A stretch of DNA of 17,323 nucleotides from Bacteroides sp. CAG:1076 (GTDB lineage Bacteria > Bacteroidota > Bacteroidia > Bacteroidales > Bacteroidaceae). The notes beneath the pieces are model-generated. The model was not told the origin of the DNA. It saw nothing but the letters and a program-made list of their open reading frames with translations, and ran no database searches. The translations under genes were made by a program, and so were the position numbers. Positions 665 through 17,267 of the stretch are shown in pieces (position 1 is the stretch's first letter; every line of letters begins with the position of its first letter). The stretch covers positions 12,327 through 29,649 of the forward strand of contig HF993179.1 of assembly GCA_000436795.1 (NCBI GenBank), in the 5' to 3' direction.

Positions 665-700
665 TCCTGAAAAAACATCAGGAGAAACGACCGATGTTTT
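665..700 (+). other. Two overlapping, mutually exclusive hairpins in the nadK 3' region
   Basis: TCCTGA (665-670) pairs perfectly with TCAGGA (678-683) across a 7-base loop. The overlapping arm AAAACATC (672-679) pairs perfectly with GATGTTTT (693-700) across 13 bases. The two cannot form together. The second ends in four T bases that are also the first bases of the palindrome array at 697, so it also competes with the next hairpin. A weak terminator for nadK is one reading and a switch-like RNA is another. The pairings are seen directly; their use is inference. Confidence 0.45.
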
Positions 701-749
701 GTACAAAACTTTCAAGAGTTTGTACAAAAGATTTTAGTCTTTGTACAAA
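697..749. repeat. Three TTTGTACAAA palindromes with exact 21-bp spacing
   Basis: The palindrome TTTGTACAAA occurs at 698-707 (extended to TTTTGTACAAAA, 697-708), 719-728 and 740-749. The centres are 702.5, 723.5 and 744.5, exactly 21 bp apart, two turns of B-DNA. The spacers also show dyad symmetry. Copies 1 and 2 fold into a 13-bp hairpin with one bulged A (705) and the 6-base loop TTCAAG. Copies 2 and 3 fold into a 12-bp hairpin with one bulged A (726) and the 6-base loop TTTTAG. The closing pairs differ (ACT with AGT, AGA with TCT) but still pair. Copy 2 can serve only one hairpin at a time. The array could be a phased operator, an RNA switch or both. I know no regulator for this motif. 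Confidence 0.85.
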
Positions 750-754
750 TTATA

Positions 755-768
755 CCTGAAGCCTCAGG
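755..768 (+). other. Small hairpin CCTGA-AGCC-TCAGG after the palindrome array
   Basis: A 5-bp perfect stem with a 4-base loop begins five bases after the third palindrome. It has no T tract, so it is not a terminator by itself. It repeats the CCTGA/TCAGG pairing of the hairpin at 665-683, so the array is flanked on both sides by related small hairpins. Confidence 0.35.
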
Positions 769-11033: not shown

Positions 11034-11810
11034 TTATCTCACAGAAGTTTCTCCTTCGATATATTGTTCCAGAAACATAGATTCCCCGTCGAATACCGCA
11101 TACGAAAATTCACTGATCCAGTCACCCAGAATCATCATTCGCGACGAACGGCTCAGCATCAGGTCGAGTACAATGTGACGGTGTCCATAGATAAAGTAAT
11201 TGATATCAGGGTGCATTTTCAGATATTCCTTGGTAAACAATACCAGCGGTTCCTTGTCCTCACCCATATATTCCGGTTCTTTTCCGTCCTTCCGCTTCAT
11301 ACGACTGTGCTTTGCCCACTCCAGTCCGAAGTCGATACTCCAGCGGGGATGCAGCATGGAGAACAGGCGTTGCAACGTTTTACTATGAAACATAGCGCGC
11401 AGCAACTTAAACTTATGATCGTTATCACCCAGCCCGTCGCCATGCGCCAGGAAAAACTCCTTGCCATAAATCTCACAAGTCAGCGGTTCACGATGAATAA
11501 TAACCCCACATTCCTTTTCCAAATAGTCGCCGCACCAGATATCATGGTTGCCGATAAAGAAATGCACCTCTACTCCCAGATCTGTCAACTCGGATATTTT
11601 TCCCAAGAAACGGGTATACCCTTTCGGAACGACCAGCTTGAATTCGTACCAGAAATCGAACATGTCGCCCAGCAGATATACGGCTGCCGCCTGATGCTTG
11701 ATACTGTCGAGAAAATTAACCAGCCGGCGTTCCTGCGTACGACTATGCGCTATCGCACGTGAACCCAGATGAGCATCCGATAGAAAATAGACATTCTTCA
11801 TCGCTTCCAT
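11034..11810 (-). CDS. lpxH: UDP-2,3-diacylglucosamine diphosphatase
   Basis: LpxH removes UMP from UDP-2,3-diacylglucosamine to give lipid X, an early lipid A step at the inner membrane face. The 258-residue protein shows the metallophosphoesterase motifs in order: FLSDAHLGS (D-x-H at residues 12-14), LLGDMFDFW (Asp49), FIGNHD (GNHD at 87-90), HGDGLGD (123-129) and YGHRH (GHRH at 209-212). The spacing matches LpxH rather than LpxI or LpxG. A second ATG three codons in (11801) is an equally possible start. The upstream SufT-like gene ends 12 bases before it, so it is probably transcribed from the promoter at 12168. Confidence 0.93.
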   Translation of the reverse strand: MEAMKNVYFLSDAHLGSRAIAHSRTQERRLVNFLDSIKHQAAAVYLLGDMFDFWYEFKLVVPKGYTRFLGKISELTDLGVEVHFFIGNHDIWCGDYLEKECGVIIHREPLTCEIYGKEFFLAHGDGLGDNDHKFKLLRAMFHSKTLQRLFSMLHPRWSIDFGLEWAKHSRMKRKDGKEPEYMGEDKEPLVLFTKEYLKMHPDINYFIYGHRHIVLDLMLSRSSRMMILGDWISEFSYAVFDGESMFLEQYIEGETSVR

Positions 11811-11822
11811 AACTATTCTTTT

Positions 11823-12893: not shown

Positions 12894-13883
12894 TTACTCA
12901 TAAAAGTTCTTCTCGAAGGCGGAAAAGGCTCCCTTGCCTCGCACACAGCGCTTCCACCATGCCGACAAGAAGCCGGTCCCATACCCCGTCAACTGTATAA
13001 ACGCAGCAATGACGGATAATATACCGATATACAAACTTTTATTTTGTATGGAAGAATCAATGAATATAATCACAGCAAACAAGGCAAGCAGCAAAAGTGC
13101 CCACGGACACACCAGCGAAGCAAGCAGTACCAACACCACACCTACCGTAAAAACGGCAGGAAGCATGTGTACCAGTTTAAGCGACTCCGGGTATTTCTTA
13201 TACAGATTGATGCGTGCGATACCCGAATTGTGCACCTGTTTGAAGAACTTTTTCAGGTCGGTACGACGCTTGTGCCATACCCATGCTTCGGGAAACAAGC
13301 GGCAACGATACCCTCCTTTAAAGATACGGATGCTGAAATCAATGTCTTCGCCAAAACGCATCTTCGAGAAACCTCCCAGCGCACGATACACCTCGGCACG
13401 TACGCCCATATTGAAACTGCGCGGATAAAACTTATCCATTTTCTTCTTTCCCCCGCGGATGCCTCCCGTAGTAAAGAAAGAAGTCATGGCATAGTTGATT
13501 GCCTTTTGGGTAGGCGAGAAAGAATCGTGCGCACGGTCCGGTCCGCCGAAAGCATCGGCAGGCTGACGCTTCAGTTCTTCGTCGACGGCAGCCAGATAAC
13601 CCGGTGGCAGCACACAATCCGAATCCAGAATCAGCAGATATTCTCCCCGACTGCGTTCAGCCCCGAAGTTGCGGGTCTGCCCCGGTCCGGAGTTAGGCTT
13701 ATTATAATAATGTACATCCAGTTGCGTACGGTATTTCTCCACTACCTGCTCACAAGGTACGGACGATCCGTCTTCCACAACCAGCACTTCAAAATCATCC
13801 AGCGTCTGTTCCGTAAGGCTTTGCAGCAGTTCATCCACTTCGTCGGGACGATTGTATACGGGAATAATAAAAGAATATCTCAT
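12894..13883 (-). CDS. Family 2 glycosyltransferase with C-terminal membrane segments
   Basis: A 329-residue GT-A fold protein. The start YSFIIPVYNRPDEVDELLQSL and VVEDGS (35-40) form the nucleotide-binding half, LILDSDC (84-90) holds the DxD metal site at 87-89, and RFGEDIDFSIR (176-186) holds the catalytic Glu-Asp. FNMGVRAEVYRALGGF fits the GT2 acceptor region. Hydrophobic segments at about 243-275 and 284-308 anchor it to the inner membrane. Such enzymes build surface glycans or glycolipids; donor and acceptor cannot be told. It heads the minus-strand run and has a promoter 24 bases upstream. Confidence 0.93.
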   Translation of the reverse strand: MRYSFIIPVYNRPDEVDELLQSLTEQTLDDFEVLVVEDGSSVPCEQVVEKYRTQLDVHYYNKPNSGPGQTRNFGAERSRGEYLLILDSDCVLPPGYLAAVDEELKRQPADAFGGPDRAHDSFSPTQKAINYAMTSFFTTGGIRGGKKKMDKFYPRSFNMGVRAEVYRALGGFSKMRFGEDIDFSIRIFKGGYRCRLFPEAWVWHKRRTDLKKFFKQVHNSGIARINLYKKYPESLKLVHMLPAVFTVGVVLVLLASLVCPWALLLLALFAVIIFIDSSIQNKSLYIGILSVIAAFIQLTGYGTGFLSAWWKRCVRGKGAFSAFEKNFYE

Positions 13884-13915: not shown

Positions 13916-14016
13916 CGTCTTTCTTGAAAGTATGCTGAACTTTGGCGGAGTTTCTTCAACATTTTCCGCATACACAACGAACGGTTTCTGAAAGCCTGCC
14001 TGGTTCCGGATATTTT

Positions 14017-14048
14017 TTTGTACAAAGTTTTTTTGATTTTGTACAAAA
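14017..14048. repeat. Two TTTGTACAAA palindromes with 21-bp spacing
   Basis: TTTGTACAAA is at 14017-14026 and TTTTGTACAAAA at 14037-14048; the centres (14021.5 and 14042.5) are exactly 21 bp apart, the same period as in the three-copy array at 697-749. The pair can fold into a long hairpin (14014-14023 with 14041-14050, then AAA with TTT and G-U/U-A/U-G pairs) with a loop of five T bases. A-rich sequence follows on both strands, so it is not a normal terminator. It lies about 214 bases before the sigma gene and about 100 bases behind the glycosyltransferase promoter, a fair place for an operator. Confidence 0.8.
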
Positions 14049-14261
14049 AATAAAAAAACGTCCCGACATTTTCCGGCAAAGACGACGGACAGCCGACAAC
14101 ATCGCCGGCAAGAGTTTCTGTCAGTAACCAGCAAGCTGTTTTCCCCATCTTCAATGAAGAAAAAAGAAAAAAGAAGAAATTTTTATTCTTCCCTTGTTAC
14201 AAAACATATAGCTTTACGTTTACCTTTTTGAAAACAATTCGTACGACCCGATTAACAAAGC

Positions 14262-16700: not shown

Positions 16701-17267
16701 TTATGCTTTTACACGACCTACGTAAGAACCATCGCGAGTATCAACTTCGATGATTTCGTCCTGATTGATGAACAAAGGCACACGTACAGTAGCACCTGTT
16801 TCAACAGTAGCAGGCTTAGTAGCGTTTGTAGCAGTATCGCCTTTCAGTCCCGGTTCTGTGTAAGTAACCTTCAACTGAACCTTAACCGGCAATTCAGCGA
16901 ACAAGATAGTTTCAGTAGAAGCATCAGATACAACGTCTACTACCATTTCTTCTTTCAGGAAGTCAACACCTTCGATCAGATCGTGAGCGATAGGCACCTG
17001 TTCGTATGTTTCCTGGTTCATGAAGATATAATCTTCACCTTCCTTGTACAAATACTGGTACGGACGGCGTTCTACACGTACATCTTCCAGTTTTTCACCG
17101 ATGTTGAAACGACGTTCCAATACATAACCATCAACAACATCTTTCAGTTTTGTACGCATGAAAGTGTTTCCTTTACCCGGTTTTACATGCAAAAAGTCGA
17201 TACAGAAATACAGCTTTCCATCCATACGGATAGCTGTTCCGATCTTAATGTCTTGAGCATTAATCAT
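16701..17267 (-). CDS. efp: Translation elongation factor P
   Basis: EF-P binds stalled ribosomes between the P and E sites and speeds peptide bonds at polyproline stretches. The 188-residue protein has the usual three beta-barrel domains: the KOW-like N-terminal domain from MINAQDIKIGTAIRMDGKLY, the tip loop HVKPGKGNTF with Lys32 at the position that is lysylated in E. coli (Lys34), the central OB domain and the C-terminal OB domain with VPLFINQDEIIEVDTRDGSY (the EF-P signature region). Lysine at the tip points to the Lys-type rather than the Arg-type that is rhamnosylated. The modifying enzyme is not in this window. The 56 bases upstream hold no exact TAnnTTTG. Confidence 0.97.
   Translation of the reverse strand: MINAQDIKIGTAIRMDGKLYFCIDFLHVKPGKGNTFMRTKLKDVVDGYVLERRFNIGEKLEDVRVERRPYQYLYKEGEDYIFMNQETYEQVPIAHDLIEGVDFLKEEMVVDVVSDASTETILFAELPVKVQLKVTYTEPGLKGDTATNATKPATVETGATVRVPLFINQDEIIEVDTRDGSYVGRVKA

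Follow-up and report, generated by a model that had tools for sequence, protein, structure and literature searches.

Phased palindromic boxes in a Bacteroides genome: candidate members of a dispersed, MITE-like intergenic family

Iteron and operator arrays stepped at two helical turns, the ArgR boxes among them, have palindromic sites for dimers that all face the same side of the helix, and CGTC tags are known in the REPs of Bacteroidetes. REP/BIME sequences with RAYT transposases are intergenic, palindromic, high in copy number and set at regular spacing within composite arrays (PMC3733652, PMC2817692). Among described elements, the closest that we found is the BrickBuilt MITE of Porphyromonas gingivalis, which consists of tandem 23-nt units without spacer, ranges from 1 to 22.8 units per copy and has ends that match IS5-family elements, with no BLASTn match beyond P. 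gingivalis reported (PMC4596501). The arrays that we describe here are best read as akin to BrickBuilt but distinct from it. Both are dispersed, intergenic sequences of Bacteroidales with tandem short units and predicted stem loops; the ends of BrickBuilt are inverted, as are those of many copies here. In contrast to the 23-nt period of BrickBuilt, our arrays have a period of 21-22 bp and, in three genomes, a near-fixed number of 3-5 boxes; in contrast to its IS5-family ends, no element matching theirs was found around the ~40 of 115 DDE_Tnp_1 matches covered in the related genome G270. Neither GTACAAA nor TTTGTAC occurs in the main text of the BrickBuilt paper (PMC4596501), and our literature search found no description of this array. 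The arrays likewise resemble REP/BIME sequences in the properties listed above, but four of the five genomes rich in arrays have no Y1_Tnp match. Compared to ArgR-type arrays, they occur as many dispersed copies without promoter preference.

The window, meaning the whole stretch of DNA that was analysed, comprises 17,323 nucleotides of Bacteroides sp. CAG:1076. As the original prediction had it, the palindrome TTTGTACAAA occurs three times at 21-bp steps after nadK, and a second group of two copies, again 21 bp apart, lies elsewhere in the window. Exact, unstranded matches form array 1 at 698-707 (box 1), 719-728 (box 2) and 740-749 (box 3), the first of which begins one base later than the claimed start of 697, and array 2 at 14017-14026 (box 1) and 14038-14047 (box 2). 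Tandem Repeats Finder independently reported 698-749 with a period of 21. Array 1 lies between the convergent genes nadK (plus strand, ORF end at 631) and murF (minus strand, ORF end at 1044), while array 2 lies between divergent genes for a family-2 glycosyltransferase (minus strand, 12894-13883) and an ECF-type sigma factor (plus strand, from 14262). The claim that no intact copy falls in coding sequence held for both groups: the only ORFs overlapping the boxes are short mechanical ones, and the closest further match in the window (17043-17052, within a minus-strand ORF of 188 aa) has 1 mismatch. Five chance copies were correctly judged very unlikely, since dinucleotide-preserving shuffles of the window contained a mean of 0.020 exact copies (maximum 1), and none of 300 contained a pair within 41 bp. 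Exact copies of nine other palindromic 10-mers were absent from the window. The repetition of TTTGTACAAA in the window is confirmed as non-random and intergenic.

Sequence flanking the boxes was also considered. Array 1 is tentatively bounded by a left inverted arm, ACGTCCTGA (662-670, unstranded), 8 of 9 positions of which are complementary to a right inverted arm, TCAGGATGT (764-772, unstranded); the arms come from reading the sequence together with the predicted fold of 660-790, in which they pair with each other. The right half of array 2, GTACAAAAAATAAAAAAA (14041-14058, plus strand), is the dispersed core of the family as defined by copies in G270. It adjoins a diverged, hairpin-like end (14059-14075, unstranded), delimited by aligning 14 G270 copies with the window copy, where CATC or a similar sequence stands in the majority of G270 copies. 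The window had no Rfam match at gathering score, and positions 655-785 had no match in plasmid sequences. A second dispersed palindromic intergenic repeat occupies 823-989 of the window (core about 875-933). G270 has several copies of it, and 12 other genomes of the genus give matches, a number of them on both strands.

G270 is the nearest of 61 genomes of one genus, which was reached via a draw of Bacteroidaceae genomes; its nadK is 84% identical, and almost the whole window is syntenic with a single G270 contig at 83-84%. Relative to the window, G270 carries about 1.17 kb extra at 11801-11819. Remnants of the arrays persist in G270 at both window sites, each with a different box number. The nadK-murF place has two degenerate boxes 21 bp apart (1 and 2 mismatches) with a terminator-like hairpin after them, and the place of array 2 has one exact box, equivalent to box 2 and with the same right half. 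Window and G270 agree in 26 of 29 columns at 14038-14066 and in 15 of 30 at 14067-14095, compared to 47/87 and 24/65 in the neighboring stretches (13926-14012 and 14096-14160, respectively). Because only 7 of 25 columns agree at 14013-14037, box 1 of array 2 is not common to G270. The expectation that the array would be conserved after nadK was borne out in G270 alone, and there in degenerate form, as the exact word was found at 0 of the 30 nadK loci listed, from 57 genomes with a match. The nadK-region search also gave a weak match to window positions 720-760 in G417 (E 1.6e-4). At the second site, the gap between matching blocks was 44 bp in G318 and 83 bp in G122, compared to 269 and 254 bp, respectively, in the window opposite each, and these two stretches contained neither an exact TTTGTACAAA nor a box pair.

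Searched with the region of array 2, G270 yielded 15 more short matches, located at 14 places, whereas 13 other genomes of its genus yielded none of this type. The core GTACAAAAAATAAAAAAA occurs in G270 in 18 exact and 9 one-mismatch copies, or 27 including the orthologous copy. The 60 other genomes of the genus together contained 0 exact and 15 one-mismatch copies, compared to 19 for a reversed control word, so that outside G270 the core is at chance level. Of the 27 G270 copies, 8 lie between convergent, 6 between divergent and 13 between tandem genes; 24 overlap no ORF of at least 80 aa, the ORFs at the other 3 being unverified calls, and several adjoin terminator-like hairpins. Box number is irregular in G270, the window's own lineage: among 13 places viewed with an exact TTTGTACAAA (15 loci, three of which belong to one array), eight had a single box, two had two, one had three and two had four. 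The proposed genome-wide count of TTTGTACAAA gave 53 copies in G270 compared to 14 of the reversed word, an excess in line with the prediction. The spacing part of the same check was less decisive, with a 21-22 bp preference of near matches only modestly above that of some control words. In a 397-kb sample of G270, near matches to the word paired at 20-22 bp in 13 of 61 cases, and we regard this signal as modest because control words paired comparably (TTTTGCAAAA, 15/115; TTTCATGAAA, 7/74; TTTCTAGAAA, 6/46; nine controls in all).

Pairs of TTTGTACAAA within 41 bp were present in 9 of 399 genomes of the family (22 pairs, 13 of them spaced at 21 bp and another 5 at 22 bp), whereas the reversed word gave 3 pairs in 2 of the 399. 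Among 31 genomes counted, a clear excess of TTTGTACAAA over the reversed word was seen in five: G002 (71 vs 2), G165 (26 vs 2), G007 (55 vs 9), G145 (33 vs 17) and G270. Despite containing a pair, G001 (5 vs 13), G003 (4 vs 5), G064 (7 vs 8) and G127 (6 vs 4) displayed no clear excess.

G002 contained 19 arrays of five boxes at 21-bp steps and none longer. These came from a 385-kb sample picked partly around known sites, and therefore unusable for density, in a scan that required at least 3 matching spacers and to which shorter arrays were invisible; it returned 20 chains, of which one unrelated was dropped, and 17 arrays were called outright by the script while 2 were recovered by reading over one sub-threshold spacer. 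All 21 exact TTTGTACAAA copies in the sample sit within five-box arrays. At the three inner positions TTTNNNNAAA predominates, GTAC being the commonest centre, and 31 of 38 outer boxes have the sequence WWTCTSCAAA. The flanking inverted arms of the array in L212 match at 29 of 30 positions.

For G007 and G165 we walked outward from each word, accepting steps that deviated from the stated period by no more than 1 bp and boxes with at most 3 mismatches. In G007, 27 loci were drawn from the 55 words in the genome, 8 of them picked for a nearby second word; 22 were four-box arrays, two with a weak fifth box, and 67 of 69 steps were 22 bp. The remaining viewed loci were one two-box case and four single words, and of the 19 sites outside that selection, 14 were arrays. 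In G007 the TGTACA core hardly varies (1.76-2.00 bits per column), and the 12-bp spacer, ASAATNNATTST, is also dyad-symmetric. In G165, 15 of 21 sites were arrays of three or four boxes with all 32 steps at 21 bp, the other six being single words; without five picked loci, arrays accounted for 10 of 16. Across these arrays the box core is more conserved than most spacer positions. Arrays overlapped an ORF, by unverified calls, in 3 of 17 rows in G002 and 2 of 15 in G165. Terminal inverted repeats are clear in several G002 copies, recognizable in G165 and G270, and weak both in the window, where 8 of 9 bp pair, and in the majority of G007 copies. In G002, G165 and G270, shared flanking arms accompany the boxes, and the arrays are therefore elements rather than bare operators. 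In G270, G002, G007 and G165 they are short, non-coding, dispersed, intergenic and multicopy, as expected of MITEs (50-1000 bp).

On the strength of the dyad box, the two-turn step, the small box number with shared arms, and the dispersal, we lean toward the view that both window clusters belong to a dispersed, non-coding, MITE-like intergenic family whose body is a row of dyad boxes acting as a putative platform for dimer binding. The near-fixed box numbers of G002, G007 and G165 support this view; the irregular box number of G270, the weak outer arms of the window and most G007 copies, and the lack of a clear word excess in G001, G003, G064 and G127 count against it. An element of this kind would consist of dyad-symmetric boxes 21 or 22 bp apart, closed by lineage-specific arms that form inverted repeats in many copies. 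Each box would be the site of a putative dimeric, sequence-specific DNA-binding protein, several dimers of which could load along a single helical face. The protein would most likely be a transposase, or a partner in transposition or nucleoid structure, that once spread the element; such a protein could explain why boxes and spacing are retained while spacers and arms diverge between lineages. Both window clusters resemble old insertions that have partly eroded, and no link to the adjoining genes is evident.

Candidate sources of mobility were sought in the same genomes. A species-level comparison of one site revealed no target-site duplication, nor did a strain-level empty site come to light. 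G270 is rich in insertion sequences, with 115 DDE_Tnp_1 matches. Around about 40 of these, the element profile was found on one side of a few and on both sides of none, and an IS parent of the DDE_Tnp_1 type was provisionally set aside for that set, in a search confined to this one family and with IS ends unmapped. A RAYT-driven REP was likewise rejected: Y1_Tnp had no match in G270, G165, G007, G145 or G001, and the five Y1_Tnp loci of G002 were without any box by the pattern used.

Words other than TTTGTACAAA occur in the same architecture. In the same 399 genomes, the control palindrome TTTCATGAAA formed 11 pairs in 5 genomes, 10 of them at 22 bp, and its reversed form 5 pairs in 3 genomes, while TTTGATCAAA and its reversed form each gave 1 pair in 1 genome. 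Of the four TTTCATGAAA loci viewed with 22-bp pairs (L466-L469, in four Bacteroidaceae genomes), three share the build of the TTTGTACAAA arrays, with four or five boxes, and the fourth has two clear boxes. TTTGTACAAA is the most frequent of the words counted, yet is not unique, in a survey in which every genome was reached through chosen words. Since TTTCATGAAA arrays exist elsewhere, TTTGTACAAA can be viewed as the dialect of a lineage, the architecture recurring with different words. It is possible, albeit doubtful, that phased-palindrome arrays constitute a general intergenic class of Bacteroidaceae, with a few dyad boxes set two helical turns apart, in which the word varies by lineage (TTTGTACAAA, TTTCATGAAA and others) and each is read by a putative fast-evolving, undescribed DNA-binding protein.

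A different reading takes the boxes for sites of a nucleoid or chromosome-organizing protein, selected genome-wide rather than mobile. The strict phasing of the boxes and an intergenic distribution without strong context preference fit such a role, as does an orthologous array that G007 and G145 both carry immediately ahead of an HU-HIG gene. High predicted curvature in G002, where 17 of 18 arrays had z>2 compared to 6 of 35 flanks, also speaks for it, but the property is not general, with 6 of 15 arrays in G165 (flanks 3/30) and 2 of 22 in G007 (flanks 2/44). We therefore rejected intrinsic curvature as a common property, since the strong signal of G002 is matched by a partial one in G165 and by values close to background in G007. 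The sporadic occurrence of the word, with a pair in only 9/399 family genomes, and the shared arms that travel with the boxes in G002, G165 and G270 argue further against sites maintained genome-wide, and we consider this reading unlikely. The HU-HIG-adjoining arrays each have four boxes and are located at 974-1112 of L442 (G007) and 2957-3096 of L156 (G145). HU-HIG adjacency is a possible lead to the bound protein, although a single such case among the 22 arrays of G007 could be a coincidence.

The original prediction took the boxes as sites of a cooperatively loading dimeric protein. The strict spacing of about two turns in other genomes, and a core more conserved than most spacers, fit side-by-side dimers as far as sequence patterns can indicate, and that part of the proposal stands as a suggestion; its other part, a regulator linked to nadK, does not, the arrays being dispersed and 23 of 76 placed between convergent genes. 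In the wider form of this proposal, dimers loading cooperatively on the array would control the neighboring genes. Phased palindromes are what such an operator would present, and the orthologous four-box array of G007 and G145 lies directly upstream of the apparent promoter of the HU-HIG gene, which we take from its motifs to be of the Bacteroidetes type. In contrast, 23 of the 76 arrays with both neighbors called (~30%) lie between convergent genes, a context that argues against promoter operators, and the window's own main array is among those so placed. By genome, convergent contexts numbered 8 of 27 in G270, 7 of 16 in G002, 5 of 19 in G007 and 3 of 14 in G165, neighbors being longest-ORF calls rather than the output of a trained gene finder. 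The length-weighted convergent background, for two of these genomes, was 0.20 in G002 and 0.18 in G270. In view of context and dispersal we rejected an operator of a gene near nadK, and we judge the operator reading in general to be improbable.

Still less probable, in our estimation, is an element acting at the level of RNA or single-stranded hairpins, whether terminator or REP-like, with palindromes serving base pairing. Folds are more stable than those of shuffled sequences (z of -2.3 to -4.6 for the window arrays, -10.0 for one G002 element and -5.0 for one G165 element), several of the G270 copies lie next to terminator-like hairpins, G007 has single perfect inverted spacer pairs, and in the same genome p is 0.05 for 2 of 6 inverted comparisons between boxes. 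RNA hairpins, however, need no exact 21- or 22-bp steps, and spacer complementarity within an array does not exceed that between arrays (22 G007 and 20 G002 arrays), some G002 pairs displaying less. The known REP tag CGTC was seen by eye beside both window arrays, at 663-666 and 14059-14062, but at that place in 0 of 14 G270 copies; GTAG is an alternative REP tag.

Chance or simple minisatellite slippage is very improbable, for although the sequence is AT-rich, box number varies in G270 and one of six direct comparisons in G002 (S1-S2) reached p 0.008 among 30 tests (two others gave 0.05-0.08), the window shuffles refute chance, the family is dispersed, box number is near-fixed in G002, G007 and G165, and direct similarity of units within arrays showed no excess over that between arrays in G007 (22 arrays, without within-array homogeneity) and in general none in G002 (20 arrays). 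Given that neither inverted nor direct similarity is in general elevated within arrays, both a hairpin constraint on RNA and slippage were rejected.

TTTGTACAAA pairs also occur in many phyla, with helical phasing of R 0.59 at 10.5 bp (n=119) among the matches listed. A single cross-phylum regulator was rejected, as many of the pairs proved on reading to be long inverted repeats or members of repeat families, and several loci lie on one contig; for these reasons we do not take the cross-phylum pairs as evidence of one protein. Among the matches listed, Clostridia MAGs carry TTTGTACAAA pairs at 20, 21 or 41 bp beside genes with a Spo0A_C domain, at five loci (L001, L005, L060, L104 and L105). 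Rhodobacteraceae, also among the matches listed, have dispersed inverted elements that begin and end with TTTGTACAAA, the two copies being in most cases separated by 30-31 or 41 bp (L012, L022, L027, L029 and L057, together with Mameliella and Shimia loci).

If the reading as a MITE-like element with a dimer platform is true, some of the DNA between the genes of these bacteria would be taken up by elements that carry their own ruler, two helical turns in length. With this ruler recurring under different words, the cognate protein could be found through co-variation of gene and word; the reading would also suggest BrickBuilt of P. gingivalis as a member of a wider class. It would likewise be a caution against taking such arrays, where they are met near single genes, for promoter operators.
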